Shown here in pieces: positions 1 through 19,586 of a DNA stretch of 33,102 nucleotides (its first letter is position 1; each line of letters begins with the position of its first letter). The translations under genes and the position numbers were made by a program. Under the pieces are notes generated by a model. It did not search any database, was not told the origin of the DNA, and saw only the letters and a program-made list of their open reading frames with translations. The DNA comes from an uncultured Marinobacter sp. Its GTDB lineage: Bacteria > Pseudomonadota > Gammaproteobacteria > Pseudomonadales > Oleiphilaceae. The stretch lies in contig CAJXOQ010000020.1 in the NCBI GenBank assembly GCA_913057975.1, forward strand, positions 1 to 33,102. Reading direction: 5' to 3'.

Positions 1-47
1 CTACACCTCTCTATTCGTCGGCAGCGTCAGATGTGTATAAGAGACAG
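1..47 (+). other. Illumina Nextera i5 adapter remnant (artefact)
   Basis: The first 47 bases are synthetic. They read, in order, the end of the P5 tail (CTACAC), an 8-base index CTCTCTAT (the standard Nextera i5 index 502), the Nextera read-1 handle TCGTCGGCAGCGTC, and the Tn5 mosaic end AGATGTGTATAAGAGACAG. Biological sequence starts at about position 48. The block shows that untrimmed reads entered the assembly and that this contig end is a sequencing-library end, not a genomic one. Confidence 0.98.
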
Positions 48-66
48 TTACAGGATCGTATCAAAC

Positions 67-98
67 AAAACGTCGGCTAACTTTTTAGCCGACGTTTT
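67..98 (-). terminator. Rho-independent terminator after the DUF21 gene
   Basis: A perfect 14-bp inverted repeat (67-80 and 85-98) encloses a 4-base loop. It is flanked by A/T runs, so it could terminate in both directions. It lies 26 bases past the stop codon of the minus-strand DUF21/CBS gene, the expected place for that transcript to end. Confidence 0.85.
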
Positions 99-123
99 AT
101 GTTAAATGCACGTTAATCAATAA

Positions 124-1191
124 TTAAACTTTTTCAGCGTTAATTAATTCGGCTACTTTTTCGTTCTGCTGCACTAACGGCAACATACCTTTAAGTAATC
201 GGCCGAATATATCAGCACCGGTAATAATTCGTTTAGTTTCGCCCCAAACCAACAACACATCGTGTTCAATAACACCATCAAAGTTCTTATCGATAGAGGT
301 GTTCACTTTCATTTGTAATATTGCTTCATTTAATGAAGTTGTTTCATCGGTAATAACCACGGGACGGTGGCAAAAGCTGTAAGGGTCAAAGTTTTCTGCT
401 TGAAAAAGAGCACTTCGTAAGAAACCATCAGCATCAATAACCAATAATGGTGTACCTTCAAGGTTTGTGATAACAACCCAGCTATGGCCTGATTGGTTCA
501 GCATAGTTAAGAAAGGATCATCAGCGCCAGAATAAGTATCAGGTAATATAGGTAGATCAAGTTTCGTTGGCAAAGCAATAATAGAGTTAGGGTCTATTAT
601 TTCACCTTCTTGAGTAACTTTAATTTCATCTAGTGCAAAAAAGTTTAATGCGCCAATACCTTCTACATGGTTTAAATCAGCTTCTTCAGCACGAATATGC
701 TCTTTAATAATATTACCTAACTCACTCTCTCCTAAGTAGGTAATGCCTTCTTTACCTAACCAAGCGTCAAGAATTAACGCACTAGGGCGCGCTACAGGGT
801 AAAGAATAATTTGGTAGAAGCGAATAATGGGCGCTAGCATACTGCCCATTTTTAATGCATTACGAGAAAAATAGGCCTGAGGTGTTATCTCACCAATAAT
901 AGTAATGGCAATAGTAGAAAATAAAAATGCACCAACGCCTGCTAAAACTGAGTCTGACAACATAGTTAATAAAACATTAATACCAACATTGCCCCACAAA
1001 ATTGTGGCTAGCAAAAAATTAGAGTCGTTTCTTAATTTCAGTACAACTTGTGCAGCTTTATTACCTTTGTTAGCTTCTACTTCTAGTTGCAATCTACTGA
1101 GCGAGAAAAAAGCTAAATTTAATCCTGAAAAAATAGCGGATTGTGAAATACAAAATACAATCGCTACCCAGGTGATAGTTTCTACGGGCAT
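124..1191 (-). CDS. DUF21 (CNNM) / CBS-domain membrane protein, CorC/HlyC-like
   Basis: A 355-residue inner-membrane protein of the CNNM/CorC class, a family linked to magnesium or cobalt homeostasis and efflux. Residues about 1-140 form the DUF21 membrane domain, with hydrophobic segments near 8-30, 58-80, 84-104 and 118-138. A short acidic linker follows, and residues about 190-340 look like a cytoplasmic CBS pair. It ends after the CBS region, with no obvious C-terminal CorC_HlyC domain. The start at 1191 has a good ribosome binding site (GAGGA, 9 bases upstream). It lies 25 bases downstream of the mgtE stop, so in its source genome it probably formed an operon with mgtE, consistent with divalent-cation transport. 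It is AT-rich throughout and belongs to the foreign segment. The family is clear; the transported ion is not. Confidence 0.8.
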   Translation of the reverse strand: MPVETITWVAIVFCISQSAIFSGLNLAFFSLSRLQLEVEANKGNKAAQVVLKLRNDSNFLLATILWGNVGINVLLTMLSDSVLAGVGAFLFSTIAITIIGEITPQAYFSRNALKMGSMLAPIIRFYQIILYPVARPSALILDAWLGKEGITYLGESELGNIIKEHIRAEEADLNHVEGIGALNFFALDEIKVTQEGEIIDPNSIIALPTKLDLPILPDTYSGADDPFLTMLNQSGHSWVVITNLEGTPLLVIDADGFLRSALFQAENFDPYSFCHRPVVITDETTSLNEAILQMKVNTSIDKNFDGVIEHDVLLVWGETKRIITGADIFGRLLKGMLPLVQQNEKVAELINAEKV

Positions 1192-1216
1192 TACTTAAAT
1201 CCTCTGTTTACTTTAC

Positions 1217-2578
1217 TTATAGTAGCAGTAAGCTACCTAATCCTAAAAATACCACAAAGCCAACAATGTCGGTTACTGTGGTTAAAATAACCGAGCCGGA
1301 AAGGGCAGGGTCAATATTTAACTTATCTAATATCGCAGGAATAACAACGCCTGATGCTGATGCTGTTAATAAGTTTAGTAAAATTGCTAAAGCAATAACT
1401 AAACTTAATTCTGCGTTGTTAAACCAAAAATAGGTGATAGTACCAATAACAACAGACCAAATTATGCCATTTAGCCCACCCACTTTTAATTCTTTGCGCA
1501 GTAGCACTTTTCTATTTTGTTCTGTTATTTGACCTAACGCCATACCTCGCACGATAACAGTTAAGGTTTGGCTTCCAGAAACGCCACCCATTGAAGCAAC
1601 TACTGGCATTAATACCGCCAAAGCCACCACTTTCTCGATGGTTGCCTCAAACAGGCCGATCACGGCGGAGGCGGTAAAGGCCGTGAGCAGATTGATGCCT
1701 AGCCACACCGCCCGACGCCGGGTGGTCTTCAGGATGGGAGCGAAGGTGTCTTCGTCCTCATCGAGGCCGGCCATGCTCATCAGTGAGTGATCGGCATCCT
1801 CACGGATTACGTCAACCACGTCATCGATGGTGATTCGGCCCAGGAGCCGGCCTTCCTCACTGACCACGGGTGCTGAGATCAAGTCGTAACGTTCGAACAG
1901 GGTCGCCACCTTGGTGTCGGACAGCGTGACTGGTATTGCTTCAATGTCCGTGTCCATCACTTCCCGCACCGTTGCCGCTGGATTGGATACCAGCATTTTG
2001 GTGATTGGCAGCATGCCGATGAACTCGTCGCGTCGGCTGACCACGATAAGACTGTCCGTCATCGGGGGCAGATTGCGATGACGACGCAGGTAGCGCAGAA
2101 CCACGTCGATGCTGATGTCCGGACGCACCGTAATGGTGTCCGTGTTCATCAGGCCGCCGGCGGTGTCTTCCGGGTAGGAAAGTACTTCTTCGACGCGCTG
2201 ACGGTCCTGCTCGTCCATGGTGTCCAGGACTTCCTGGATCACCGTGTCGGGCAATTGTTGCAGTAAGTCGGCCAGATCGTCCGACTCGAAATCCTCGATG
2301 ATGTCAGCGAGTTCCTGAGCGTTTAGCTGGCTCAGGAAGTAACCTCGGATATCGTCGTTCAGATACTGGAGGACTTCGCCTTCAAGCTGCTTGTCGACCA
2401 GGTTCCAGAGCAGGGCGCGCTGGCGGGGTGGCGATGATTCCAGCAGGTGGGCGATGTCACTGGGGCTCAGGCCGCCATTCAGGATGCGGGCGACCTGTTT
2501 CAGGGCGCCACTGTCCAGTGCTTCGCTCAGGGAGCGAAGGCGTTGGCGCGCCTGGCTTTTCTCCAGAATATCGGTCAT
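1217..2578 (-). CDS. mgtE: MgtE magnesium transporter (chimeric reading frame)
   Basis: A 453-residue MgtE-type Mg2+ channel, normal length for the family. Residues about 20-130 form the superhelical MgtE_N domain (FESDDLADLLQQLP, acidic and leucine-rich). About 135-260 form a CBS pair ending in the acidic GRITIDDVVDVIREDAD segment. About 285-453 form the transmembrane domain with roughly five helices and the conserved LMPVVASMGGVSGSQ pore motif. The frame is open throughout, but its DNA is not uniform: codons for residues 1 to about 314 (2578 to about 1635) are G+C-rich like the rest of the contig, while the remaining 3' part uses AT-rich codons. The native gene therefore probably continues differently past residue 314. 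It lies downstream of ptsO on the same strand, behind its own likely promoter. Confidence 0.9.
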   Translation of the reverse strand: MTDILEKSQARQRLRSLSEALDSGALKQVARILNGGLSPSDIAHLLESSPPRQRALLWNLVDKQLEGEVLQYLNDDIRGYFLSQLNAQELADIIEDFESDDLADLLQQLPDTVIQEVLDTMDEQDRQRVEEVLSYPEDTAGGLMNTDTITVRPDISIDVVLRYLRRHRNLPPMTDSLIVVSRRDEFIGMLPITKMLVSNPAATVREVMDTDIEAIPVTLSDTKVATLFERYDLISAPVVSEEGRLLGRITIDDVVDVIREDADHSLMSMAGLDEDEDTFAPILKTTRRRAVWLGINLLTAFTASAVIGLFEATIEKVVALAVLMPVVASMGGVSGSQTLTVIVRGMALGQITEQNRKVLLRKELKVGGLNGIIWSVVIGTITYFWFNNAELSLVIALAILLNLLTASASGVVIPAILDKLNIDPALSGSVILTTVTDIVGFVVFLGLGSLLLL

Positions 2579-2606
2579 GGATCACCCACAGTCAGAAAAC
2601 CCTCGT

Positions 2607-2612
2607 ATTATA
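2607..2612 (-). promoter_or_regulatory. Possible mgtE promoter -10 box
   Basis: The minus strand reads a perfect TATAAT 28 bases before the mgtE start codon. No good -35 hexamer stands at 16-18 bases, so this may be a weak or activator-dependent promoter. The predicted leader of roughly 20-25 bases is too short for a magnesium riboswitch. Confidence 0.45.
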
Positions 2613-2690
2613 GCGGAGTTAGGCAACATAGGTGAGGAAGAGTTGTAGGTGAATGCCGTAGACGGGCACGTATGTCCAGTGAGGAGTTGG

Positions 2691-2960
2691 TTACTCGCCT
2701 TCCCCGAAGTAGTCATTGATCAGCGTAACCAATGCATCGACAGCGTCGGATTCATCCGGACCGTCCACAATCAGCTCTACCTCTGTCCCCTGGCTGGCGG
2801 CGAGCATCATTACCGGCATGATGCTTTTGGCGTCCACCTGTCTCCCTTTGCGGCTGATTTCAATACTGCTGTCGAACTCAGATGCCTTGGCAACCAGTTT
2901 GGCTGCCGCTCGGGCATGGAGCCCGAGTTTGTTGATAATGGTAATGGGGCGGCGGATCAT
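2691..2960 (-). CDS. ptsO: HPr-like nitrogen PTS phosphocarrier NPr
   Basis: An 89-residue HPr-family phosphocarrier. The GLHARAAAKLV motif places the phosphorylatable histidine at His15, followed by the usual K/R-rich and SIMPVMMLAAS segments; the regulatory serine of HPr falls in the latter. In the nitrogen PTS, NPr passes phosphate from PtsP (EI-Ntr) to PtsN. The start at 2960 is chosen because the product then begins at the family-typical MIRRPITI; an in-frame extension upstream would run into rapZ. It begins 7 bases after the rapZ stop, so the two are translationally close and surely co-transcribed. The order ptsN-rapZ-ptsO is standard in gammaproteobacteria. Confidence 0.95.
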   Translation of the reverse strand: MIRRPITIINKLGLHARAAAKLVAKASEFDSSIEISRKGRQVDAKSIMPVMMLAASQGTEVELIVDGPDESDAVDALVTLINDYFGEGE

Positions 2961-2967
2961 AGGCGGT

Positions 2968-3849
2968 TCAGCTGTCCCTGCTTTGCAGGTGGGGCAGCTC
3001 GGTGTGGCGAACCTGCACGTTGCTGTATTTGCCCGAGAAATAGCGGCCGAGCTGATCGCAGATATAAACCGAACGATGCTGGCCACCGGTGCAGCCGATG
3101 GATATGGTCATATAACTGCGGTTGCTGTCTGCAAACGATGGCAGCCAGTTTTCCAGGAATTGGGTCAGGTCTTCGACCATCTTACGGCTCAACGGCTCCT
3201 TTTCCAGGAAATCGATGACCGGCTGGTCGGTGCCCACGAACTGCCGAAGGCTGGTGTCCCAGTAGGGATTGGGCAGGCAGCGCACATCGAACACATAGTC
3301 CGAGTCCAGTGGCACGCCGTGCTTGAACCCGAACGACTGGAACAGCAGCGCCAGTTCCTGGTGGCGCCTTCCCGCGACCCGTTGCTTCACCATATCCCGG
3401 AGCTCGTACATGGACAGCCCCGTGGTGTCGATGTAAAGGTCTGCCAGTTTTGACAGGGGCTCCAGAAGTTTCTTTTCGTTGCCAATGGCCTCCCGCAGGG
3501 AGGTTTTGTCATCACTCAGCGGGTGCTTCCGGCGCGTGGCATGGAAGCGCTGCAACAGAGACTGTTCATCGGCGTCGAGATAGATGACCTCGATGGTTAC
3601 GCCGGTGTCCTGAAGGCTGCGGTAGATATCCTCGAAGTTGCTCAGCTCCCCGGAGAGGTTACGGGCGTCGATGCTGACCGCCATCTTTCCCAGCCGGCCA
3701 GGAGAATTCTGGTTGGTGGCTTCCTGCGTGAGAGGGAACAACAGGCCAATAGGCAGGTTGTCGATGCAGTAATAGCCCAGGTCTTCCAGAACGTGTAACG
3801 CGGTACTTTTTCCGGAACCCGATCGACCACTGACGATGATTAGTTTCAT
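2968..3849 (-). CDS. rapZ: RNase adapter protein RapZ
   Basis: A 293-residue P-loop protein of the RapZ (YvcJ) family; the E. coli protein has 284. In enterics RapZ guides RNase E to the small RNA GlmZ and so tunes GlmS and amino-sugar synthesis for the cell envelope; a target in this organism cannot be seen here. Visible features are a Walker A motif GRSGSGKS at residues 8-15 and the conserved GCTGGQHRS motif at 252-260, followed by a basic, histidine-containing C-terminal tail typical of the RNA-binding end. The start ATG at 3849 leaves only 2 residues before the first strand and is family-typical. It lies 28 bases after ptsN and 7 bases before ptsO. Confidence 0.96.
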   Translation of the reverse strand: MKLIIVSGRSGSGKSTALHVLEDLGYYCIDNLPIGLLFPLTQEATNQNSPGRLGKMAVSIDARNLSGELSNFEDIYRSLQDTGVTIEVIYLDADEQSLLQRFHATRRKHPLSDDKTSLREAIGNEKKLLEPLSKLADLYIDTTGLSMYELRDMVKQRVAGRRHQELALLFQSFGFKHGVPLDSDYVFDVRCLPNPYWDTSLRQFVGTDQPVIDFLEKEPLSRKMVEDLTQFLENWLPSFADSNRSYMTISIGCTGGQHRSVYICDQLGRYFSGKYSNVQVRHTELPHLQSRDS

Positions 3850-3877
3850 AGCCCGTTCACCTCGGATATGGAGTTGT

Positions 3878-4348
3878 TCAGCCTGTCTCGGCTGTCATCC
3901 GGCGATAGAGAGAGTCTGCTTCGGTGCACTGTCGCAGCTGGTCGCAGAATGCGCGCTCGTTGAACTTTTCGGCAAGCTGGCTCAAAAGCTCAAGATGCTC
4001 GCTGGTGGCTTCCTTGGGTACAATCAAGGTGAAGACGAGGTCCACCGGCTGGTTGTCGATGGCGTCGAACGCAACGCCTTCTTCCAGGGTCAGCAAAACG
4101 CCGACCACGTGATCCAACCCTTCCAGCCGACAGTGGGGGATCGCGATGCCCTGTCCGATACCGGTGCTCCCCAGCCGCTCCCGCGCGACCAGGTTGGTGA
4201 ATATCTGGGTGTCGCTGAGCAGAGAGTCGTGCTTCTGGATCTGCTCGGCAATGGTTTCCATAACCCGCTTTTTGCTGGAGGCAGGCACCCTGCAAAGGGT
4301 CAGCTCCGGCGCGAGAATGTTCTCGATAGTCAGGGATGTGTCGGTCAT
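3878..4348 (-). CDS. ptsN: PTS IIA-Ntr regulatory protein PtsN
   Basis: A 156-residue EIIA-Ntr protein, the output component of the nitrogen PTS, which regulates potassium uptake, sigma-54-linked functions and envelope stress through its phosphorylation state. The active-site histidine is His72 in GIAIPHCRLEG; E. coli has His73. The domain fills the whole chain (ENILAPE near the N-terminus, LLSQLAEKF near 135). There is no good Shine-Dalgarno sequence close to the start at 4348, and a strong terminator lies just upstream. ptsN expression therefore depends on readthrough from hpf or on a promoter hidden in the 20-base gap between terminator and start. It heads ptsN-rapZ-ptsO. Confidence 0.95.
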   Translation of the reverse strand: MTDTSLTIENILAPELTLCRVPASSKKRVMETIAEQIQKHDSLLSDTQIFTNLVARERLGSTGIGQGIAIPHCRLEGLDHVVGVLLTLEEGVAFDAIDNQPVDLVFTLIVPKEATSEHLELLSQLAEKFNERAFCDQLRQCTEADSLYRRMTAETG

Positions 4349-4367
4349 GAATCGACTGCAGTTCCGT

Positions 4368-4413
4368 AAAAAAAGGCTGCGGCACGTGTTGCATGGTTAG
4401 CCAGTGCCGCAGC
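4368..4413 (-). terminator. Strong Rho-independent terminator between hpf and ptsN
   Basis: Arms 4376-4385 and 4404-4413 form a perfect 10-bp G+C-rich stem with an 18-base loop. On the minus strand the stem is followed directly by CC and then seven T residues (4368-4374). This is a textbook intrinsic terminator for a transcript arriving from rpoN-hpf. It ends 20 bases before the ptsN start codon, so it probably acts as a partial terminator or attenuator within the otherwise conserved rpoN-hpf-ptsN-rapZ-ptsO cluster. Confidence 0.9.
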
Positions 4414-4443
4414 TCGATTAACTGTCATGCAGGGGGCGTCGTC

Positions 4444-4752
4444 CTAGCGGGCGCCGTTCCCATGCATCCGGTCTACGTTCTTTTCCTTGTGCTTCAGGAT
4501 CTGCCTGTCCAGCTTGTCTACCAGTCCATCAATGGCAGCGTACATATCGCTGTTTTCGGCCTTTGCGTGAATCTCACCACCTATCACGTGAAGCGTAGCT
4601 TCCGCCATCTGGCGCACTTTTTCCACCTCAAGGGTAACCTGGCAATTGCTGATATGGTCGAAGTGCCGCTCAAGCTTTTCAAATTTGCCTGATACGTAAT
4701 CTTTCAGTGCGGGAGTCAGTTCTACGTGATGGCCTGAAATATTGAGTTGCAT
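4444..4752 (-). CDS. hpf: Ribosome hibernation promoting factor HPF
   Basis: A 102-residue HPF/YfiA (sigma-54 modulation) family protein. It begins MQLNISGHHVELTPAL, has the basic central segment KFEKLERHFDHI, and ends without the C-terminal extension of long-form HPF. The family binds the 30S decoding centre and dimerises or inactivates ribosomes in stationary phase. The start at 4752 has a ribosome binding site (GGAG, 7 bases upstream). It sits directly downstream of rpoN, the invariant position in this group. A 6-bp hairpin at 4776-4797 in the rpoN-hpf gap lacks a T run. Confidence 0.95.
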   Translation of the reverse strand: MQLNISGHHVELTPALKDYVSGKFEKLERHFDHISNCQVTLEVEKVRQMAEATLHVIGGEIHAKAENSDMYAAIDGLVDKLDRQILKHKEKNVDRMHGNGAR

Positions 4753-4876
4753 AGGCTTCTCCTGTTTTCAGCTTTCCGGCACCCGTTAGGATGCCGGCTG
4801 TGTGCCACAGCGTTATGCTGCAGGCGGTATATTTTCAGGAAAGGGCTCTCCCCGTGAGGCCGGGAACAGACGCTTT

Positions 4877-6409
4877 CTACACCAGTCGCTTTCGCTCGTT
4901 GGATGGAGGAATGTGCATTGCCTCGCGATATTTGGCCACGGTTCGGCGAGCCACTTTGATACCCTGGTCTCCTAGCATGGCTGCAATTTTACTATCGCTC
5001 AATGGCTTTTTCGGAGTTTCCGTTGCAATCAGCTTTTTGATCATCGCGCGGATTGCCGTGGATGAGCACTCTCCACCCTCGTCGGTACTGACATGGCTTG
5101 AGAAAAAATACTTAAGCTCAAATATGCCTCGCGGTGTGTGCATGTATTTCTGGGTGGTGACGCGTGAAATGGTCGACTCATGCATTTCCACCGCCTGGGC
5201 AATATCAGAAAGAATCAATGGTTTCATGGCTTCCTCGCCATGATCCAGGAATCCCTGCTGGTGCTCGACAATACGGGTGGCCACCTTGAGCAGGGTTTCG
5301 TTACGGCTTTGCAGGCTCTTGATGAACCACTTTGCCTCCTGCAACTGGTCCCGCAGGTACGTGTTGTCGGCACTGCTGTCCGCCCGCTTTATAAGAGAAG
5401 CATAGCTTGCATTCACACGAATGCGCGGTGCAATTTCAGGATTCAGTTCCACGCGCCAGCGCTCATTGTGTTTGCGCACGATCACATCGGGAATGACGTA
5501 GTCCGGCTCGGCCTGGTCCAGAGTGTCGCCAGGGCGCGGATTCAGTCCGGTAATAAGGGCCAGCACATCCCGTAGCTGTTCTTCCTTCAGGCGGCTGCGA
5601 CGTAACAGTTGGGCGTAATCACGGTTACCCAGCAGGTTTATGTAGTGGGTAATCACCAGTCGGGCCTGAGCCAGCCAGGGTGTTTCCGGGGGCAGCTGAT
5701 TCAGCTGGATCAGCAGGCATTCCTGCAGATTACGGGCGAACACGCCGGGTGGGTCGAAGTGCTGCAGGCGATGAAGAACGGCTTCCACTTCGTCCAGTTC
5801 CAGCGGGTCTTCGTCGGATTCCTCCACCATGCCTGAGTGAATTTCCTCAAGCGGAGACGTCAGGTAGCCGTGGTTATCAACCGCATCCATCAGGGCGTGG
5901 GCAATGGCCTGATCCCGCTCGCTCATGGGCGTCAGGTTCAACTGCCATTCCAGGTGGTCCTGAAGCGTTTCAGTGGGGGAGTTGCGGGTTTCGAAGTCGT
6001 TGTCGTTTTCGTCGTCGTTACGGGCTGCTGAAGCGGGAGCGGACTGGTAAATGTCATCCCAGGCGGTGTCGACGGGAAGGTCATCAGGAATGGTGTCGGG
6101 GCTATCCGTTTCTGATGACCAGTCAGGTCCGTTTTCGGATTCGTCCCAGTCCGTTGCGGTGTCGGAGGTGGTGTTGGATTCCTCGGTTGACGCTGTTTCA
6201 GAGGACTCGTTGTCATTGTCCGTGGATTCCGGACTCTGGTTGTCGTCGTCTTCCGAGGTTTCCAGCATTGGGTTGGATTCCAATGCCTGCTGGATTTCCT
6301 GCTGAAGGTCCAGGGTGGAGAGCTGCAAAAGCCTGATAGCCTGTTGCAGCTGGGGCGTCATGGTCAGGCTTTGGCCCAGCTTTAACTGTAATGAGGCTTT
6401 CATAACCAT
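4877..6409 (-). CDS. rpoN: RNA polymerase sigma-54 factor
   Basis: A 510-residue sigma-54, somewhat longer than the E. coli protein (477). Region I (residues 3-50) is the glutamine/leucine-rich activator-responsive part ([22 protein letters not shown]). Region II, about 52-145, is an unusually long run of D, E, S and T. Region III contains the core-binding domain, the helix-turn-helix ([12 protein letters not shown]) and the invariant RpoN box [10 protein letters not shown] at 487-496. The protein directs transcription from -24/-12 promoters with enhancer-binding ATPases. Two starts are possible, 6409 and 6403; the second begins [11 protein letters not shown] as in homologues. Neither has a clear Shine-Dalgarno. 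A triple direct repeat sits immediately upstream. Confidence 0.96.
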
Positions 6410-6420
6410 GGTTCAGGATC

Positions 6421-6482
6421 CGTCACTCGGTCTCTCTCTTCCGTCACTCAGGCTCTCTCTTTACGTCACTCGGGCGCTCTCT
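6421..6482 (-). repeat. Three tandem 21-22-bp repeats in the rpoN leader
   Basis: Three head-to-tail copies (6421-6441, 6442-6463, 6464-6482) share the minus-strand consensus AGAGAGMGMCYGAGTGACG. They end 12 bases before the rpoN start codon. The spacing of 21-22 bases is two helical turns, so a protein bound to each would sit on one face of the DNA. In RNA the AGAGAG runs are purine-rich and could also act as ribosome standby sites. No known regulator site is recognised. Confidence 0.8.
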
Positions 6483-6555
6483 GGAGCCGGGGTTGCATAA
6501 AAACTCTTTGTATGCTGGCTACTTGCCGCACCAAGCAAGTTCTTTGCCGAGTGTA

Positions 6556-7281
6556 CTACAGGCGAAACTCGTTGCCCAGATACACTTCCTTGACCTGCTG
6601 GTTGGCCAGTATATCGTCCGAGTTGCCAGAGGCAATGATATGGCCGCCACTGACAATGTAGGCATTCTCGCAGATATCGAGGGTTTCCCGCACGTTGTGG
6701 TCGGTGATCAGTACGCCGATGCCCTTGTCCCGCAGGTGCCGGATGATCTGCTTGATGTCGCTCACTGAGATGGGATCGACCCCAGCGAAGGGCTCGTCCA
6801 GAAGGATGAATGCCGGCTCCATCGCCAGTGCGCGGGCAATTTCCACCCGTCGTCGCTCGCCGCCTGACAGGGCCATGCCGACGCTATCGCGGATGTGGGT
6901 GATGTGAAACTCTTCAAGCAGTTCCTCCAGCTTAGCCTCCCGGTCCGCACGCTTGAGTTTGCTGCGGGTTTCCAGGATGGCCAGTATGTTGTCGCGCACA
7001 GTGAGTTTGCGGAACACCGATGCTTCCTGGGGCAGGTACCCGATTCCCTTTCGGGCACGGCCGTGCATGGGCAGGGGCGTTATGTCCTGATTGTCGATGG
7101 TGATTCGACCGTTGTCGGCGGGAACCAGGCCAACAATCATGTAGAAACACGTCGTTTTGCCCGCGCCATTGGGTCCAAGAAGGCCGACTATCTCGCCGCT
7201 GCGAATTTCCAGGGAAACGTCGATGACGACCTTCTTCTGCTTGTAGCTTTTTGCCAGGTTACTGGCCCTGAGAACTGCCAT
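6556..7281 (-). CDS. lptB: LPS export ABC transporter ATPase LptB
   Basis: A 241-residue ABC ATPase that powers lipopolysaccharide extraction from the inner membrane as part of LptB2FGC. Walker A GPNGAGKT is at residues 36-43, the signature LSGGE at 138-142, Walker B with LDEP at 161-164, and the switch histidine in LITDHNV near 195. The length equals that of E. coli LptB. The start ATG at 7281 overlaps the end of lptA by 23 bases, indicating translational coupling. It is the last gene of the kdsD-kdsC-lptC-lptA-lptB run, followed by rpoN 146 bases on with no terminator visible between them. Confidence 0.97.
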
Positions 7282-7891
7282 CGGTATCCTGTTCGCCGGA
7301 GTTGTTGTCTGGATTGTTGTCGGGATTGCCGCGTGGCTGTATCACCATCTCGACCCGACCGCTGCCATCGCCCTGATCGGCGGAGCCTTCCGCCGTCACA
7401 ACACGTTCGGCGCTATCATAGTGAATGATATTGCCGCGGAACAGGTTGCCGCCCTGTTCGATAACGGCTTCGCGTTTAAACGTGACCCGATTGTCCGAGG
7501 CGGACCAGGTGATCGTCAGGGCGCGGGCGTCGGTTTCGCCCTGGCCTTCCATTGCCGGCTGGCGGTAGCGTGCCGGGGTACCGGTGGCTTCAATGCGGCT
7601 GACGCCATTTTCGTCCCGGTGGAGCACAACCTTGTCCGCCACGAGGTTGGCGTCGCCCTGGCTCATTTCAACCGAACCGGTATAGGTTGCAATGCCCTGA
7701 CCTTCGTCGAGCCGCGCGTTGTCGGCGTTGACCGTGATGGGTTGATCGGACTCCAGATCAAAGGCCGCGGCGAATGGCATGCCAACGGTAAGTGTCAGTG
7801 CCAGAACAATCGCTGAGAGTACCGGGCGCGAAGCAACCGATTGGTGTCCCTTGCGGTGAGGGTGGGGCATGAATTTACTTGCCGGGCTCAT
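7259..7891 (-). CDS. lptA: Periplasmic LPS transport protein LptA
   Basis: A LptA/OstA-family protein that forms the periplasmic beta-jellyroll bridge carrying LPS from LptC to LptD. With the start at 7891 it has 210 residues: an N-terminal basic region and signal peptide (hydrophobic run ending near MPFAAA, residues about 22-43), then the OstA domain beginning [19 protein letters not shown]. The tail is low-complexity (N, D, G, S, Q rich). The start at 7891 is preferred because GGAAGGA stands 4 bases upstream; it overlaps lptC by 17 bases. A start at 7870 would also keep a signal peptide but has a poor ribosome binding site. An in-frame ATG at 7936 lies deep inside lptC. Confidence 0.93.
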
Positions 7892-8465
7892 AGCGTCCTT
7901 CCACTTGAGAGTCGAGTTCGAGGATTCGGTCATCAATCCAGGCCTTCATGCCGGTTGCGCGGGTCAGGCTGAACGAGTCGGTCAGTTTCACCGGAGCGTC
8001 TGTGTAAACAGTACGCTCTGCGTTATCCAGTGTCAGCGTCGACGTGGTTAATGTCAGTGGGCGCCCACCTTGGGCTTGCTGGGACACCCGAACATCCCCG
8101 GTCAGGTGGACCAGGTCGTCAGCTTCCATGAACTGGCCTTTGTTGGCCTGGACTTGCCAGGGTGCGTCGCCGGGATCGCCGTAAAGCGTCGCATTCGGCG
8201 ATGCCATGATGGTCTCGCTGCGGGCCTCGAATTGCTCAATACGCGGGCTTTCGAACTGTGCGGTAAGCTGCCCGGTCTCATCGAAAGAGAGGTAGCGACC
8301 ATTTACCACGAAACCGTCTGGCTCCGATTCTCCTCTCAGCGCGGCGGCATCCACCGGCTCTGATGACTCGTCACTTTGCCAGAGCAGGAAAAACAGTGCC
8401 ACTATCGTGAGGGCCAGCCCCAGGGTTCGTACCCAAGGCCGTGCATAGAGGGCTTCGGCGGCCAT
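7875..8465 (-). CDS. lptC: LPS export protein LptC
   Basis: A 196-residue LptC. One N-terminal membrane helix (residues about 13-29) anchors it in the inner membrane; the rest is a periplasmic domain of the LptC/OstA jellyroll type (NGRYLSFDETGQLTAQFESPRIE, LTGDVRVSQ). It accepts LPS from LptB2FG and hands it to LptA. Its start codon directly abuts the kdsC stop, and its end overlaps lptA, so kdsC-lptC-lptA-lptB are tightly coupled. Confidence 0.94.
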   Translation of the reverse strand: MAAEALYARPWVRTLGLALTIVALFFLLWQSDESSEPVDAAALRGESEPDGFVVNGRYLSFDETGQLTAQFESPRIEQFEARSETIMASPNATLYGDPGDAPWQVQANKGQFMEADDLVHLTGDVRVSQQAQGGRPLTLTTSTLTLDNAERTVYTDAPVKLTDSFSLTRATGMKAWIDDRILELDSQVEGRYEPGK

Positions 8466-9023
8466 TCAGTCCTGCTCCAGGTAAGGTTGCAGGCTGGCAT
8501 TGAGTTGCCCGCAGGCACAGAGCAGCAGTTCACAGGCTTCACGGACTGCGCCGCTGCCCCCCGCGGCCGACGTGCAAAAATCCGCGTGCTGGCGCACCAG
8601 CCAGTGGCCATTGGGTACCGTTATGCCTAGCCCGGCATAGCGGATCGCGGGCAGGTCCGGAAGGTCGTCGCCCATGTAGGCAATCTGGTGTGGCGCGATC
8701 TCCAACCGTCCCGCCAGTTCCCGCAGGGCGACTTTCTTGTCCTCACGGCCCTGCATCAGGTGCGGGATGCCGAGGTCGTTCATGCGTTTTTCCGTCAGCG
8801 GCGAACGTCGTCCGGTAATGACAGCAACGTTGATGCCGGCAGCCATAACCTGTTTGATGCCCAGGCCGTCGAGAATGTTGAAGCCTTTGATCTCGTCGCC
8901 CGAGGCGCTGAACAGCAGAGTGCCGTCGGTCATGATGCCGTCCACATCCAGGGCCAGGAGGCGAATGGCAGCGGCTTTCTCGATCAGGTCCGCTGGCCAT
9001 TGAGGGCGCAGAGTGTCGGCCAT
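8466..9023 (-). CDS. kdsC: 3-deoxy-D-manno-octulosonate 8-phosphate phosphatase KdsC
   Basis: A 185-residue HAD-family phosphatase (E. coli 188) that dephosphorylates Kdo-8-phosphate to Kdo, the sugar linking lipid A to the LPS core. The HAD motif DVDGIMTDG supplies the nucleophile Asp26 and acid/base Asp28. VITGRRSP gives motif II, and GDDLPDLPA the metal-binding motif III/IV. No cap domain is present, as in the tetrameric KdsC class. Its start at 9023 touches the last base of the kdsD stop codon, so translation is coupled. Confidence 0.96.
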   Translation of the reverse strand: MADTLRPQWPADLIEKAAAIRLLALDVDGIMTDGTLLFSASGDEIKGFNILDGLGIKQVMAAGINVAVITGRRSPLTEKRMNDLGIPHLMQGREDKKVALRELAGRLEIAPHQIAYMGDDLPDLPAIRYAGLGITVPNGHWLVRQHADFCTSAAGGSGAVREACELLLCACGQLNASLQPYLEQD

Positions 9024-10003
9024 CAGATCACTCCCGCCCGCAATAGGTCGTGCATGTTGATAGCGCCAGTCAGTTTGCCGTCGCGATTGATGACGGGCAG
9101 GGCGTTGATCTTCAGCTCTTCCATCATGTTCAGTGCCTCGGCGGCCAACTGGTCATCGTGGATCACACGCCCGTTGCGGGTCATGACCTCGGCAATCGGC
9201 GTGTTATGAATGTCCACGGAGCGATCCAGGGTGCGGCGCAAGTCGCCGTCTGTGAACACGCCGACCAGGTCTCCCCCGGTATTGATGACCGTCGTCATAC
9301 CCAGGCCCTTGCGGGAAATCTCCAGCAGGGCGCCGCTGAGGGTGGTGCCTTCCTGCACGCGGGGGATCCGGTCCCCGGTGTGCATAATATCGGTGACACG
9401 CAGTAGCAACCTGCGGCCCAGGCTGCCGCCGGGGTGTGAAAGCGCAAAGTCCTCTGTGCTGAACCCACGGGCTTCAAGCAGCGCCACGGCCAGGGCATCG
9501 CCCATCACCAGAGTGGCCGTGGTGCTTGAGGTGGGGGCCAGTCCAAGGGGGCAGGCTTCCTGGGCAACGCTGATATCCAGGTTGGCAACGGCCTCCCGGG
9601 CCAGGATGGAGTTCCCATTGCCCGTCATGCTGATCAGCGGGGCTCCCATGCGCTTGATTAACGGCAAAATAGTCAACACTTCGCTGGTGTTACCGCTGTT
9701 GGAAATGCCCAGGACCACGTCCTGACTGGTGATCATTCCCAAGTCACCGTGACTGGCTTCGCCTGGGTGTACGAAGAACGATGGCGTACCAGTGCTGGCG
9801 AGGGTGGCGGCGATCTTGTTACCGATATGGCCGGATTTTCCCATGCCGGTCACAACAACACGCCCCTGACACGCCATGATAACTTCGCATGCGCGAACGA
9901 AATGGTCATCAATCCGGTCGGTCAGGGCGTGGATGGCCTCACGCTCGATCTCGATGGCTCGCAGGGCGGATTCTCTGAAGGTCTGGCTGGTCTCGGTGTT
10001 CAT
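9023..10003 (-). CDS. kdsD: D-arabinose 5-phosphate isomerase KdsD
   Basis: A 326-residue enzyme interconverting ribulose-5-phosphate and arabinose-5-phosphate, the first step of Kdo synthesis. An N-terminal SIS sugar-isomerase domain (GMGKSGHIGNKIAAT, then HPGEASHGDLGM and ISNSGNTSE) is followed by two CBS domains (residues about 205-326). The start at 10003 is chosen because GGAAG lies 4 bases upstream, the product then begins MNTETSQTF at family-typical length, and the predicted promoter -10 lies just upstream. An in-frame ATG at 10099 would precede that promoter. First gene of kdsD-kdsC-lptCAB. Confidence 0.95.
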   Translation of the reverse strand: MNTETSQTFRESALRAIEIEREAIHALTDRIDDHFVRACEVIMACQGRVVVTGMGKSGHIGNKIAATLASTGTPSFFVHPGEASHGDLGMITSQDVVLGISNSGNTSEVLTILPLIKRMGAPLISMTGNGNSILAREAVANLDISVAQEACPLGLAPTSSTTATLVMGDALAVALLEARGFSTEDFALSHPGGSLGRRLLLRVTDIMHTGDRIPRVQEGTTLSGALLEISRKGLGMTTVINTGGDLVGVFTDGDLRRTLDRSVDIHNTPIAEVMTRNGRVIHDDQLAAEALNMMEELKINALPVINRDGKLTGAINMHDLLRAGVI

Positions 10004-10047
10004 CTGGCTTCCGGGTTCGAAATGTTGATGCTTTTCATCGTGGCAAA

Positions 10048-10056
10048 AGTATATCA
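10048..10056 (-). promoter_or_regulatory. Extended -10 promoter for kdsD-lptB
   Basis: The minus strand reads TGATATACT, an extended -10 element (TGn plus TATACT), 45 bases before the kdsD start. A start site about 7 bases downstream gives a leader of roughly 38 bases. No consensus -35 is present, as is usual for extended -10 promoters. Confidence 0.55.
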
Positions 10057-10156
10057 CTTCAATGGCTGTGACTGCCCTTCCTGACAAGACGTTCAGCAAA
10101 AACTGATCATTGACATCAGTTCATTTTGTGACGGATGGATTGAGGTTCACGGCAGG

Positions 10157-10185
10157 TTGACATAATGTAGCGCACTCATTAAAGG
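10157..10185 (+). promoter_or_regulatory. Sigma-70 promoter for mlaF operon
   Basis: A perfect -35 hexamer TTGACA (10157-10162) stands 17 bases before a weak -10 TAAAGG (10180-10185), giving a leader of about 40 bases before mlaF at 10232. It is back to back with the kdsD promoter, about 100 bases apart. Confidence 0.5.
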
Positions 10186-10231
10186 CTGGGAATGCGGGCT
10201 CACCGACACCCGGGCGGTTTTGGAAGCAGGT

Positions 10232-11044
10232 ATGGACACATCCCCCTACATTGAATTGAGAAACGTGGTTTTCACTCGCGGAAATCGCCGTATCTTTGAT
10301 GGCGTCAGCCTGGACATTCCCCGCGGCAAGATTACCGCCATCATGGGGCCGAGCGGCACCGGCAAGACCACGTTGTTGCGGCTGATCGGCGGCCAGCTGA
10401 AACCGGACTCCGGCAGCATAGTCGTCGCGGGGGAGAAAGTTCCTCAGCTCAAGCGCAAGGCGCTTTACCGTCTGCGGGAAAAGATGGGGATGCTGTTCCA
10501 GAGTGGAGCGTTGTTCACGGATCTCAGTGTCTTTGAAAACGTGGCGTTCCCGCTCCGGGTTCATACCACCTTGCCGGAGGATATGATCCGCGACATCGTT
10601 CTGATGAAGCTCGAAGCTGTGGGGCTTCGCGGAGCCCGGGATCTGATGCCGGCAGAACTGTCTGGTGGTATGACCAGACGTGTGGCGCTGGCGCGCAGCA
10701 TCGCGCTGGACCCGGAACTGATCATGTACGACGAGCCTTTTACCGGCCAGGACCCGATTGCCATGGGTGTCCTGGTAAAGCTGATCCGGGATCTCAACAG
10801 TTCCATGGGCCTGACCAGTGTGCTGGTGTCCCATGATGTGCCGGAGTCCCTGAGTATCTGCCACTACGCCTGTATCGTCGCGGATGGTCGTATCATAGGC
10901 GACGGCACACCTGAGGAGTTGAGGGCGCACCCATCGGAACAGGTTCAGCAGTTCCTGCGTGGTCATCCGGATGGTCCGGTGCCGTTCCACTATCCGGCTG
11001 CCGATGCGGCTCAGGACTGGAGTATGGCCGGGAGGGGGGATTGA
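10232..11044 (+). CDS. mlaF: Phospholipid transport ABC ATPase MlaF
   Basis: A 270-residue ABC ATPase of the Mla system, which moves phospholipids between the inner membrane and the outer membrane to keep outer-leaflet asymmetry. Walker A GPSGTGKT is at residues 39-46, the signature LSGGM at 143-147 (the methionine variant is typical of MlaF), and Walker B MYDEPF at 165-170. The C-terminal tail (residues about 240-270) extends past the ATPase core. The ATG at 10232 has GGAAG and AGG upstream; an in-frame TTG at 10220 is less likely. Its stop overlaps mlaE by one base. Confidence 0.95.
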
Positions 11045-11823
11045 TGGACCGGCTGGCGGCTTTTGGCCGATTGGGGATGAACGTGATTGCATCGCTCGGC
11101 CGCTCCGGGCATTTTCTTGCGGGTGCCCTGGGGGGCGTCCCACGGCCCTCGGTCGGTTTTCCTCTGTTGCTGAAGCAGCTGTACTCCGTCGGCGTTCTGT
11201 CCCTGGCCATCATAGTGGTGTCCGGCCTGTTTATCGGGATGGTTCTGGGATTGCAGGGTTACACCATCCTCAGTGATTACGGATCTGAAGCCGCGATCGG
11301 TCAGATGATTGCCCTGACCCTGGTGCGGGAACTGGGCCCCGTAGTGACCGCACTGTTGTTTGCCGGCCGTGCGGGTTCCGCACTGACGGCGGAAATCGGG
11401 TTGATGAAAACCACCGAACAGCTTTCCAGTATGGAAATGATGGGCGTTGATCCGCTGCGCCGGGTGATTGCCCCCCGTTTATGGGCGGGCTTTATCTCGG
11501 TGCCCGTGCTGGCTGCGGTGTTCTCGGTGGTTGGTATATGGGGTGGCATGCTCGTGGGTGTTGAATGGCTGGGCGTGTTTGAAGGGTCGTTCTGGGGCAA
11601 TATGCAGTCTTCCGTAAGCTTCACCACTGATGTCCTGAATGGTGTCATCAAGAGTATTGTCTTCGGATTCGTCTGCACCTGGATTGCGGTCTATCAAGGG
11701 TATGACTGTGTGCCCACCTCGGCCGGTATCAGTGCCGCAACGACCAAAACCGTGGTGTATTCGTCGCTGGCCGTACTCGGGCTGGATTTTGTGCTTACCG
11801 CCGTCATGTTTGGTGACTTCTGA
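11044..11823 (+). CDS. mlaE: Phospholipid transport permease MlaE
   Basis: A 259-residue MlaE-family inner-membrane permease, the core membrane subunit of MlaFEDB. It has an amphipathic N-terminal helix, then about five hydrophobic segments. The conserved motif [25 protein letters not shown] spans the coupling helix that contacts MlaF, followed by a second conserved motif near [17 protein letters not shown]. The start ATG at 11044 shares its A with the mlaF TGA, so the pair is translationally coupled. An upstream TTG at 11041 is unlikely. Confidence 0.95.
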
Positions 11824-11861
11824 CCGCGGTATACTGGAAAGTCAGAAAACAGGGGGCCGGA

Positions 11862-12317
11862 ATGGCACAGAGAACAACAGAAGTGATTGTGGGGCTGTTC
11901 ATGATCGCGGGCATCGCCGCCATAATGTTTCTGGCGTTGCAGGTCAGCGGGCTTACGCCGAAAGCGCCGGAAAGCTCGTACACACTCTACGCCAATTTTA
12001 ACGACGCCGGCGGGCTGACGCCCCGGGCAAAGGTATCCATGGCTGGTGTCACCGTTGGCAAGATCCGGGAGATAACCCTGAACCGGGAAACCTATCAGGC
12101 CCGCGTGACTATTGATGTGAACGCCAGTGTGGATAATATTCCAGCGGATAGCTCAGCAGTAATACGTACATCCGGGCTGCTTGGCGAACAGTACATTGAT
12201 ATTTCGGTGGGCGGAGATATGGAGTCGCTGGGCGACGGAGATACCTTCTATTCCACACAATCCGCCATGAATCTTGAACGGCTGATATCCAACTTTGCCT
12301 CAGGGCAGTCACAATGA
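11862..12317 (+). CDS. mlaD: Phospholipid transport MCE protein MlaD
   Basis: A 151-residue MCE-domain protein. One N-terminal membrane helix (residues about 7-27) anchors it; the MCE barrel follows (residues about 38-115, YANFNDAGGLTPRAKVSMAGVTVGKI and RTSGLLGEQYIDI), then a C-terminal helix that forms the hexameric hydrophobic channel. It is shorter than E. coli MlaD (183), mostly at the C-terminus. The start has an AGGGGG/GGA-rich ribosome binding site. A 38-base gap separates it from mlaE; its stop overlaps mlaC. Confidence 0.95.
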   Translation: MAQRTTEVIVGLFMIAGIAAIMFLALQVSGLTPKAPESSYTLYANFNDAGGLTPRAKVSMAGVTVGKIREITLNRETYQARVTIDVNASVDNIPADSSAVIRTSGLLGEQYIDISVGGDMESLGDGDTFYSTQSAMNLERLISNFASGQSQ

Positions 12318-12997
12318 AAGAAAGTGGTTCACGGGAGAAAACCATGGTTCTGATCAGACAAAGCCTGATGATAGTCACGTTGCTGATGGTAGCACTGGCA
12401 GCGCCGGCCCATGCCGGTCCGGAGGAGGAACTCCGCGAGTACGTTGATAAGAACACCCAGAGGCTGGTCGACAAGCTGAATGAGGAAAAGGGTCTTTATG
12501 AGAAGGACCCCCAGGCGTTCTACCGGAGTATGGATCAGGAACTGAAAAACTTCGTCGACTTTCGCCGAATCGCCGCTCGGGTCATGGGCCGCTATGCACG
12601 GCAGACATCACCGGAACAGCGCGACGAATTCGTCGAAAAGTTCAAACGCAGCCTTTTCGACAGTTACGCTCAGGCTCTGGTTAGCGCTGACGATTTTACC
12701 ATCGAGGTAAAGGAAGCCACGATCAACCCGAACGACGACGCACGGGCGTCCGTGCGTATGGAAGTGATCAGCGCCTCCGGCACCCGATATCCGGTGACGT
12801 ACTCCATGTACGAGGCGGAAGAAGGGCGCTGGATGATGGAAAACGTGATCGTCGAAGGTGTGAATATCGGGCTGGCTTTCCGTGATCGTTTCAGTCAGGA
12901 GATGGAGAAGAACGGCGGCAAGGTCCAGGCTGTTATCAACGACTGGGGGGATGCGGTGGAATCCCTGAACCTTGAGGGTGAAGTCGACAAATCATGA
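12314..12997 (+). CDS. mlaC: Periplasmic phospholipid-binding protein MlaC
   Basis: A MlaC/Ttg2D-family periplasmic carrier shuttling phospholipids between the MlaA complex and MlaFEDB. The signal peptide (hydrophobic run IVTLLMVALAAP) ends near AHAG; the mature domain starts GPEEELREYVDKNTQRL and keeps the family's DFRRIAARVMGRYA and FKRSLFDSYAQAL segments. Two starts are possible. 12314 gives 227 residues and an ATGA overlap with mlaD, as at other joints of this operon. 12344 gives 217 residues and a strong GGGAG 6 bases upstream. Both leave an intact signal peptide. Confidence 0.93.
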   Translation: MKESGSREKTMVLIRQSLMIVTLLMVALAAPAHAGPEEELREYVDKNTQRLVDKLNEEKGLYEKDPQAFYRSMDQELKNFVDFRRIAARVMGRYARQTSPEQRDEFVEKFKRSLFDSYAQALVSADDFTIEVKEATINPNDDARASVRMEVISASGTRYPVTYSMYEAEEGRWMMENVIVEGVNIGLAFRDRFSQEMEKNGGKVQAVINDWGDAVESLNLEGEVDKS

Positions 12998-13317
12998 GCA
13001 CGGATAGGCCTTCAGTGACGCTTGTTGGCGATACGCTCACGTTGAGCGGAACGATTGATCCGCTCAACGTGGTTGCGATCAGGCGGGAGGGGGAGAAGAG
13101 GATACTGGCCAGCAAGGCTGATCTACAGGTGGATCTGACCGCCATGGGCACCGCGCACAGCGTGGTGCTGTCTCTTCTGCTGTGTTGGCACCGCCTCGCA
13201 GGCGCCCGCAGTCAAGCCCTCCGGTTTACCGGCGTTAGTGAACGGCTGAACTCGTTGGCGGCCCTGAGCGGCCTTGAACGCCAGTTGCCAGGCTTTTCCT
13301 CTCCGCCCTTGGCCTGA
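12994..13317 (+). CDS. mlaB: STAS-domain protein MlaB
   Basis: A 107-residue STAS-domain protein, the cytoplasmic subunit that binds and stabilises MlaF in the MlaFEDB complex. The domain fills the chain: an N-terminal strand LTLSGTIDPLNV, then VDLTAMGTAHSVVLSLLLCWHR, which occupies the place of the conserved serine-containing loop and helix. The ATG overlaps the mlaC stop by 4 bases. A perfect 13-bp hairpin lies within codons 15-26, unusual for a coding region and close enough to the start to affect ribosome loading. Confidence 0.9.
   Translation: MSTDRPSVTLVGDTLTLSGTIDPLNVVAIRREGEKRILASKADLQVDLTAMGTAHSVVLSLLLCWHRLAGARSQALRFTGVSERLNSLAALSGLERQLPGFSSPPLA
13038..13071 (+). other. Perfect 13-bp inverted repeat inside mlaB
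   Basis: Arms 13038-13050 (CACGTTGAGCGGA) and 13059-13071 are exact reverse complements, separated by an 8-base loop; a flanking G-U pair could extend the RNA stem to 14. It starts 44 bases into mlaB. There is no T run after it, so it is not an intrinsic terminator. It may be a palindromic protein-binding site or an mRNA hairpin that affects translation or decay of the operon transcript. Confidence 0.85.
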
Positions 13318-13332
13318 AAACCTGCACCAAAG

Positions 13333-13361
13333 CTGACCCGAATGCCATAATTGGTTACAAT
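13333..13361 (+). promoter_or_regulatory. Possible promoter upstream of ibaG-murA
   Basis: CTGACC (13333-13338, 4 of 6 to consensus) and TACAAT (13356-13361, 5 of 6) are separated by 17 bases in the 80-base gap between mlaB and ibaG. This would give ibaG-murA-his transcription independent of the mla promoter, with a leader of about 30 bases. Confidence 0.5.
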
Positions 13362-13397
13362 CTCGCCCCTGATTTAAAAACGCCCGAGGATTTTTTT

Positions 13398-13640
13398 ATG
13401 GAAGCCACCGAAGTTGCCGAGTTGGTTAAAGAGGCGCTGCCTGATTGTGAGGTCGAAGTGCAGGTCGATGGCAATCACTACCTTGTTGTTGTCGTGGGCG
13501 ATGTATTCGAGGGGCTGCCAACCATCAAGCGGCAGCAACTGATCAACAAGGCGCTTTTCCAGCACATTCTTGATGGCACCATTCACGCCCTGCACCCCAA
13601 GGCCTTTACACCGGCTGAATGGGCCGCGCGCCAGGGCTGA
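13398..13640 (+). CDS. ibaG: BolA-family protein IbaG
   Basis: An 80-residue BolA-like protein of the IbaG (YrbA) type, which pairs with monothiol glutaredoxins in iron-sulfur metabolism and is linked to acid and envelope stress. It has the class II KH-like fold pattern: helix EVAELVKEAL, strand CEVEVQVDGNHYLVVVVGD, and the C-terminal signature IHALHPKAFTPAEW with the conserved histidine ligand. The ATG follows GAGGA by a run of T residues. It sits between mlaB and murA, the standard position. Confidence 0.95.
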   Translation: MEATEVAELVKEALPDCEVEVQVDGNHYLVVVVGDVFEGLPTIKRQQLINKALFQHILDGTIHALHPKAFTPAEWAARQG

Positions 13641-14930
<1,290 letters not shown>

Positions 14931-14952
14931 ACACATTGAACCGGAAAGACGC

Positions 14953-15600
14953 ATGACCGATTCCATCACCATCGCGCTGTCGAAGGGGCGAATCCTTGAC
15001 GAGACCCTGCCGCTGTTAAAAGAAGCGGGTATTGAGCTGGTCGACGATGTAAAAAAGTCCCGGAAACTGGTATTTCCCACCACGGATCCGAATGTGCGGG
15101 TTTTGATCCTTCGGGCTACCGACGTGCCCACCTATGTGCAATACGGTGGGGCGGATCTGGGGGTGACCGGTAAGGATGTGCTGATGGAGCACGGCGGTGA
15201 AGGGTTGTATGAGCCGCTGGACCTGAACATTTCCCGGTGTCGGTTGATGACGGCTGGCAAGAAAGACAGCAAACCGCCTGAGGGCCGTTTGCGTGTGGCG
15301 ACCAAGTTTGTAAATTTGGCTCGGCGCTATTACGCGGCCCAGGGGCGGCAGGCCGATATCATCAAGCTCTACGGTGCGATGGAGCTTGCGCCGATTCTTG
15401 GGCTTGCCGATGAGATCGTTGATATCGTTGATACCGGCAATACCCTGAAAGCGAATGGTCTTGAGGCTCGCGAGCTGATTGAAAACATCAGTTCTCGACT
15501 TGTGGTTAACCGTGCCTCGATGAAGATGAAACACCGGGGCATTAATCCCATAATTGAGAAAATGTCGATCGCCGTTGAAAAAAGGCGAGCTTCAGAGTAA
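14953..15600 (+). CDS. hisG: ATP phosphoribosyltransferase HisG, short form
   Basis: A 215-residue HisG, which joins ATP and PRPP in the first step of histidine synthesis. The length and the lack of the C-terminal ACT-like regulatory domain mark the short form (HisG-S), which needs the HisZ subunit for activity and feedback; no hisZ lies in the window. Family motifs include [35 protein letters not shown] and the PRPP loop region [14 protein letters not shown]. The ATG at 14953 has GGAAAG 5 bases upstream; the frame is open further upstream only inside murA. Confidence 0.97.
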
Positions 15601-15607
15601 GAAGCGC

Positions 15608-15706
15608 TCAGGGACGGCTTTCCAAAACACGCTCCTTCGGCACGTCCATGTGACGCTTGGACTTCGCCATCCATGGCTCCGTACAGTTTTGGAAAGCCGT
15701 CCCTGA
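15608..15706. repeat. Intergenic inverted-repeat element between hisG and hisD
   Basis: Two perfect 21-base inverted arms (15608-15628 and 15686-15706) enclose a 57-base centre that holds a small secondary hairpin (GTCCA/TGGAC). The element fills most of the gap inside what should be one his operon. There is no T run, so it is not an intrinsic terminator. Its size, symmetry and intergenic position resemble REP/BIME- or MITE-like elements. No second copy was noticed in this window, so the repeat family is inferred. Confidence 0.75.
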
Positions 15707-15771
15707 TCACTTCCCATGCCAAGGCGTTGCCTTAAACACAAAGAGTAAACAATCCGAAACAGGATTTAGTG

Positions 15772-17094
15772 ATGACCGATATCAGCATCAGACGATTGAA
15801 CGCTTCCGACAGTGACTTTGACAGTGCGCTGGCCAAGCTATTGGCGTGGGAAGACAGTGTGGATCATCAGGTGAATGAGTCGGTTCGTCATATCCTGCAT
15901 GAGGTGAAAACCCGTGGGGATGCTGCGGTTCTGGAGTTTACCGAGAAGTTTGATCGCTTGAAGGTTGGCTCTGTCGCTGAGCTGGAAATGGGTCAGGACC
16001 GGTTGCAGAAGGCTTTAGAGGCTATTCCTCAGGATCAGCGTGTTGCCCTTGAGAAGGCCGCCGAACGGGTGCGTGACTATCACGAGCGTCAGAATCAGAC
16101 GTCCTGGCAGTATGAAGACGATGACGGCACCGTACTCGGTCAGAAGGTCACGCCGCTGGATCGGGCAGGGCTGTATGTGCCCGGTGGCAAGGCCGCTTAT
16201 CCGTCTTCCGTGTTGATGAACGCTATCCCGGCAAAGGTCGCGGGTGTGGGCGAGGTGATTATGGTGGTTCCCACGCCGGATGGTGTGGTGAACGATATGG
16301 TGCTGGCCGCTGCGGCGATTGCGGGGGTGGATCGCGTCTTTTGTGTGGGTGGTGCTCAGGCGGTGGGTGCCTTGGCCTACGGCACACAGACCATTCCTGC
16401 CGTCGATAAGATTGTTGGGCCGGGCAATATTTTTGTCGCTACCGCCAAGCGAGAGGTTTTCGGAACCGTTGGTATCGACATGATTGCCGGTCCTTCGGAG
16501 ATTCTGGTGATTTGTGACGGCAAGACTGATCCGGACTGGATTGCCATGGATTTGTTCTCCCAGGCCGAGCACGATGAGCAGGCCCAGTCCATTCTTATCA
16601 GTCCCGATGCCGATTTCCTGGATGCCGTGGAAACCAGCATCAACAGACTGCTACCGACCATGGAGCGAGCCGACATCATCACAACCTCGATGACGGACCG
16701 GGCTGCGCTGATTCACGTGGCGGACTTGTCGGAAGCGGCTCGCGTTTCCAATCGTATTGCGCCGGAGCACCTGGAGCTTTCGGTGGAAGATCCGGAAAAT
16801 CTGGTGGACGAGATTCGCCATGCCGGTGCCATCTTTATGGGGCGCTATACGGCGGAGGCGCTGGGCGATTACTGCGCCGGGCCGAACCATGTGTTGCCGA
16901 CGTCCGGGACGGCGCGTTTCTCCTCGCCGCTGGGGGTTTATGACTTCCAGAAGCGGTCGTCGCTGATTGGTTTTTCTGCAGCCGGTGCCGACAGGATGGG
17001 GCGCGTTGCCTCTGTTCTGGCGCGTGGAGAAGGGTTAACGGCTCACGCCCGTTCTGCAGAGTATCGGGTTCGGGAGGGCCAGTCAGATGAGTAA
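15772..17094 (+). CDS. hisD: Histidinol dehydrogenase HisD
   Basis: A 440-residue zinc enzyme performing the last two steps of histidine synthesis, histidinol to histidine with two NAD+. Recognisable segments are [26 protein letters not shown], the Rossmann region [27 protein letters not shown], the catalytic and metal-ligand region [12 protein letters not shown], and APEHLEL. The ATG at 15772 is preferred over the GTG one codon before it; AGGA lies 7 bases upstream. The end overlaps hisC by 8 bases. Confidence 0.97.
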
Positions 17095-18142: not shown

Positions 18143-18176
18143 CACAAGATATTCAAGGCAACCCCATGGAGGCAGC

Positions 18177-18920: not shown

Positions 18921-18923
18921 GCG

Positions 18924-19361: not shown

Positions 19362-19402
19362 AAGCTGTGTGATCCTTTTGATGAATAGGAATTCCTTCCC
19401 AA

Positions 19403-19408
19403 AGTATA
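19403..19408 (-). promoter_or_regulatory. Possible zapG promoter -10 box
   Basis: The minus strand reads TATACT 41 bases before the zapG start at 19361, without a convincing -35. In the same 225-base divergent gap the plus strand offers TTGCCT (19435-19440) and TATTGT (19457-19462) with a 16-base spacer as a possible zapE promoter. Confidence 0.35.
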
Positions 19409-19586
19409 CCGTCCCAAGTCCCATTCACGCACGATTGCCTCGTGCGCCAATCGTCGTATTGTGTCGTATGTCTGGCTCGCTCCCGCTGTTGCAGCGGTTT
19501 CTCCGGGTGTTGAACGTGGCGAAAAAAGCCAAAATCGGCCACAATACGCCGCCGTTATGAATGACCATACTTCGGGAAACGCCTTA

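Follow-up and report, generated by a model that had tools for sequence, protein, structure and literature searches.

A half-foreign mgtE gene at the start of a Marinobacter contig, in all likelihood created during assembly or library preparation

Gene content and base composition at the contig start

The window analyzed here is the whole of contig C20, a stretch of 33,102 bases from a Marinobacter assembly of 4,163,832 bases in 315 contigs (contamination score 0.01, completeness score 93.62). The first 47 bases (1..47, plus strand) are a Nextera adapter remnant with the i5 index CTCTCTAT, and its other parts are presumably the P5 end, the read-1 sequence and a 19-base Tn5 mosaic end at 29-47. 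An AT-rich stretch follows from 48 to about 1610, with two minus-strand features, a CNNM (DUF21) family gene of 355 aa (124..1191; Pfam PF01595, E 2.1e-37) and the end of the mgtE frame, and the sequence is GC-rich from about 1611 rightwards. The original prediction had noted a sharp step in G+C content from about 35% to about 60% inside mgtE, and this is confirmed by 200-base windows, which give 0.34-0.395 when ending by 1600, 0.49 at 1501-1700, and 0.545-0.63 from 1601 to 2600.

The mgtE ORF (1217-2578, minus strand, 453 aa) contains no stop anywhere, so that its frame remains open across the step, as had been claimed. In likeness to the MgtE magnesium channel family, MgtE_N (PF03448), CBS (PF00571) and MgtE (PF01769) domains are all present in the joined ORF, each above the Pfam cut-offs, and the two source genes described below both align to it. 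A second, distant mgtE homologue is found on another contig of the same assembly (C74:12621-13754), and is 31% identical to the window's ORF over residues 82-452.

The two parts of mgtE match different bacteria

For comparison, the mgtE ORF was cut into an N part (residues 1-312) and a C part (residues 319-453). The N part was searched within the whole protein in relatives and then compared with the fetched loci, and the C part was searched against the contigs of genomes, where the best 80 of 538 matches were kept. Against loci from 19 of 24 same-genus genomes the N part is 91.7-99.7% identical (best match L010, at 99.7%), but the C part is only 52.7-57.1% identical to the same 19 loci. Among the loci up to L062 that the comparison covers, the N part is 22.6-26.5% identical to nine loci of the Colwellia group, and the C part is 86.5-91.3% identical to the five closest ones. 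Three Colwellia loci (L030, L031 and L032) show 23.7-25.3% identity to the N part and 90.5-91.3% to the C part, and the remaining Colwellia-group loci, again among those up to L062, are 68.9-87.3% identical to the C part. These contrasting identities argue against a plain fluctuation of G+C content. The original prediction had proposed that the two halves of mgtE be looked at separately, and done in this way they have their best matches in different bacteria, i.e., own genus and Colwellia. The claim that mgtE carries a foreign 3' part is supported, as the C part is nearest, of the loci compared, to Colwellia and the N part to its own genus. Judged by these matches, the G+C step is a change of origin.

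The native 5' part of mgtE (1633..2578, minus strand) lies in a region with 98.1% DNA identity to G126, a genome labelled as the same species, over 1566-6452. The foreign, Colwellia-like segment comprises 1,563 bases (48..1610) and matches Colwellia at the DNA level; in G126 only its bases 1566-1610, which are homologous mgtE sequence, have a counterpart. DNA identity is approximately 82-83% to L030 and L032 over window positions 179-1651 and to L031 over 179-1632. In L030, an ORF at 4450-5574 comes 23 bases after mgtE (3074-4426), and since both ORFs are spanned by the DNA match (3992-5462), the Colwellia gene order is the same as the mgtE-CNNM order of the window. The CNNM gene at 124-1191 matches the CNNM/DUF21 family (PF01595), but it is part of the foreign segment and no gene of this genome. 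The matches of its protein among the 24 same-genus genomes are no more than weak and partial (best E 9.9e-9, identity 34% or less), and homologues in two of 13 same-order genomes (G027 and G028) are 57-59% identical, which is below what is expected of a donor. A plasmid source is not indicated, as the 22 plasmid records that match the CNNM protein are all below 60% identical and none matches the repeat at 15600-15725 described at the end.

The join and its absence from related genomes

G126 is assembled as one contig of 4,632,059 bases and is a conspecific genome without the join. Its sequence is identical to the window between 1611 and at least 1739 and differs at base 1610; to the left of 1611 the similarity is no greater than that between any two mgtE genes, and the BLAST match stops at 1566. 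When window positions 49-20000 were used as query, G126 matched from 1566 to 19,999 in one piece at 94%, and the foreign part was unmatched. The break in identity at 1611 falls within 1605..1655, where the original prediction had placed the join, while the residue number must be adjusted from about 314 to about 316-322. As a single strain with 94-98% identity, G126 could in principle differ at the join from the strain under study.

At 1610, the six Colwellia-group sequences looked at all carry the base of the window, and at 1633 none of the six does. Since G126 differs at 1610 and the Colwellia group at 1633, the two parents could have no more than 22 bases (1611..1632) in common, a figure that assumes an unseen Colwellia parent. 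Among known relatives, the longest run in common with G126 inside the join is 13 bases (L046) or 11 bases (L032), and in the other five of the seven Colwellia-group loci compared with G126 it is 9-11 bases and lies outside the join; no run longer than 13 bases is common to the mgtE region of G126 and any of these seven loci. The conserved MgtE segment at the join is KVVALAV. An identity of 22 bases, if present in the actual parents, could possibly suffice for an overlap at k=21.

A rival explanation is real horizontal transfer, in which the strain recombined the 3' end of a Colwellia mgtE together with the CNNM gene into its chromosome and gained a working hybrid transporter. In its favor, the join leaves an intact frame with homologous sequence on either side, and the step falls on conserved sequence, as after homologous recombination. 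However, the identity at the step, 22 bases at most, would be short for homologous recombination. The distribution of the foreign part also speaks against transfer. In a query of 124 genomes of the genus (own genome included) with window positions 49-1640, with no more than two candidates scored in each, a match to some piece of the query is seen in 21 of the 123 other genomes, in none over more than 282 bases. A related genome with the same hybrid gene, which the original prediction had named as counter-evidence, is therefore not found among these 123 genomes, G126 included.

The native continuation on another contig

In all six relatives examined and in G126, an ORF comes after mgtE and next to it a longer ORF on the opposite strand; by their protein sequences, we take these two to be yjgA-like and nitrilase-like genes. 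G126 carries an ordinary mgtE, followed by the yjgA-like and then the nitrilase-like gene. Contig C86 of the assembly under study begins with an adapter piece, TATAAGAGACAG (bases 1-12), with the nitrilase-like gene right behind it. Its match to G126 starts at base 12 and extends over 4,118 bases at 96%, in the expected orientation. The native continuation is hence present elsewhere in the same assembly, at the start of C86.

The gap between the start of C86 (L191:4118) and the join in C20 (L191:5162) corresponds to L191 4119-5161, i.e., 1,043 bases of G126, made up of the yjgA-like ORF with 96 bases from the end of the nitrilase-like gene on one side and 394 bases of mgtE on the other. When L191 4100-5200 was queried in the own assembly, the sole match was the edge at C20:1566-1649, and the 1,043 bases are absent. 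The start of C86 and the missing G126 stretch together indicate that the native route from C20 leads across this gap to C86. This argues against horizontal transfer, as the native neighbor stands at the start of C86, placed and oriented as in G126, with its adapter facing the same gap. On the other side of the join, the foreign segment runs after 1.56 kb into the adapter (bases 1-47) with no second native boundary seen within the contig, which also speaks against transfer, although a boundary beyond the contig end would be out of view.

Adapter remnants and search for further foreign DNA

The original prediction had pointed to an adapter at the outer end of the contig, and bases 1-47 are such a sequence, shared with other contig ends. 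A start of the same type with the i5 index was seen at 39 other contig ends when 40 of 411 candidates were scored. The exact 19-base mosaic end occurs in 395 copies in the assembly (200 forward, 195 reverse; reversed control 0), and with this many copies in 315 contigs the adapters were left untrimmed before assembly. Among the 100 places listed, every forward mosaic end lies within the first 50 bases of its contig, and the 30 end loci that were fetched have the motif at the outer end. The adapter ends are either of the read-1 side with CTCTCTAT or of the read-2 side with AGGAGTCC. These two indices are given as S502-A and N705-A, respectively, in a table of PMC7589761, where the primers have other tails. 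Because the i5 index at the foreign end is the same as at the 39 other contig ends, the Colwellia DNA probably came via the same library or via one sharing that index. The adapters on hundreds of contig ends are a matter for the owner of the assembly.

An 8.4-kb Colwellia locus queried against the own assembly gave matches at C20 only. That no second Colwellia piece was met, either in this search or in the G+C scan below, is in line with horizontal transfer; together with the contamination score of 0.01 it is a point against the explanation by an artefact. In a sampled G+C scan no other contig end was as AT-rich as that of C20, and no 500-base window below 0.46 was found in the 33 readable of 40 sampled stretches (seven read only N). 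In 300-base bins outside C20, among the 30 end loci, some values reach down to 0.43. SSU rRNA was not found in the own assembly with 26 of 83 candidates scored (the control was found in nine of 14 well-known genomes), and as a search for a second organism this result is uninformative on contamination. No contig shorter than 2,040 bases was met. This minimum and the SSU rRNA result would fit a length-filtered or binned assembly of a mixed sample, although the source may also be an isolate with a contaminant.

Origin of the half-foreign gene

The sequence comparisons make it nearly certain that two genomes are joined in contig C20, and the half-foreign mgtE most likely arose artificially, in assembly or in library preparation, and is no real gene. 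The earlier claim of a misassembly between DNA of an AT-rich organism and a Marinobacter-like genome is supported by the split matches, by G126 lacking the join, and by the continuation on C86. The native chromosome would run from the right to approximately 1611-1632 in mgtE and then, by G126, into the rest of mgtE, the yjgA-like gene and the nitrilase-like gene on C86. At KVVALAV, the native and the Colwellia mgtE could be identical over as many as 22 bases, and a De Bruijn-type assembler using a small k, or a template switch during PCR, may have crossed there into Colwellia DNA of the same library. The contig would then have continued for 1.56 kb through the end of the Colwellia mgtE and the CNNM gene until the library molecule ended in its untrimmed adapter. 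The open frame would be explained by an in-frame join of two homologues.

Both an assembler join and a PCR chimera are artefacts, and assembled sequence does not tell the two apart. A PCR or amplification chimera formed in the library by template switching between two mgtE genes is a rather unlikely form of the artefact, even though the same short possible identity at the join and the indexed tagmentation library are compatible with it. A single chimeric molecule would rarely give 1.56 kb of foreign sequence, and several Colwellia molecules were therefore probably in the library in any case.

Horizontal transfer, by contrast, we consider highly improbable, and equally so that the hybrid MgtE is a real protein which combines its own cytoplasmic domains with a Colwellia membrane domain gained across genera along with the CNNM gene. 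The very slight doubt that is left comes from the evidence being assembled sequence and from G126 being another strain. If it were true after all, the gene would be a domain-level hybrid of magnesium transporters between distant marine genera.

Among known cases, C20 compares best with inter-organism chimeric contigs in short-read drafts and bins. C20 is like these in having two sources with a short possible identity in a conserved gene and in having contig ends at gaps with the adapter left on, and it is odd among them only in the open frame and in a native continuation that can be located. In contrast to members of the MgtE family, the joined protein is most likely no gene of either organism. 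The hybrid thus carries no biological weight, and the approximately 1.6 kb at the contig start should be trimmed. The protein is unfit as an example of cross-genus recombination, or for trees of MgtE or CNNM in this genus. Among the papers listed on Marinobacter, Colwellia, Nextera drafts and chimeric contigs, none of the titles and opening lines of abstracts names this assembly, although a report may exist.

Further observations in the assembly and the window

At the end of contig C19 (L139), most of the last 1.5 kb before the adapter has a G+C content of 0.45-0.47. The first 1,500 bases of L139 gave no match in G126, an empty answer which alone shows nothing; this end may be a region specific to the strain or another foreign end.

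Within the window, approximately 99 intergenic bases at 15608-15706 have a terminal stem of 21 base pairs and an RNA fold of -52.9 kcal/mol (z -7.5). Of the G126 matches listed for the query 49-20000, 41 of 43 fall on 15608-15706 and are spread genome-wide, although a few pairs may be the two arms of one copy. This element is a palindromic repeat dispersed in the genome and is perhaps of REP- or MITE-like type.
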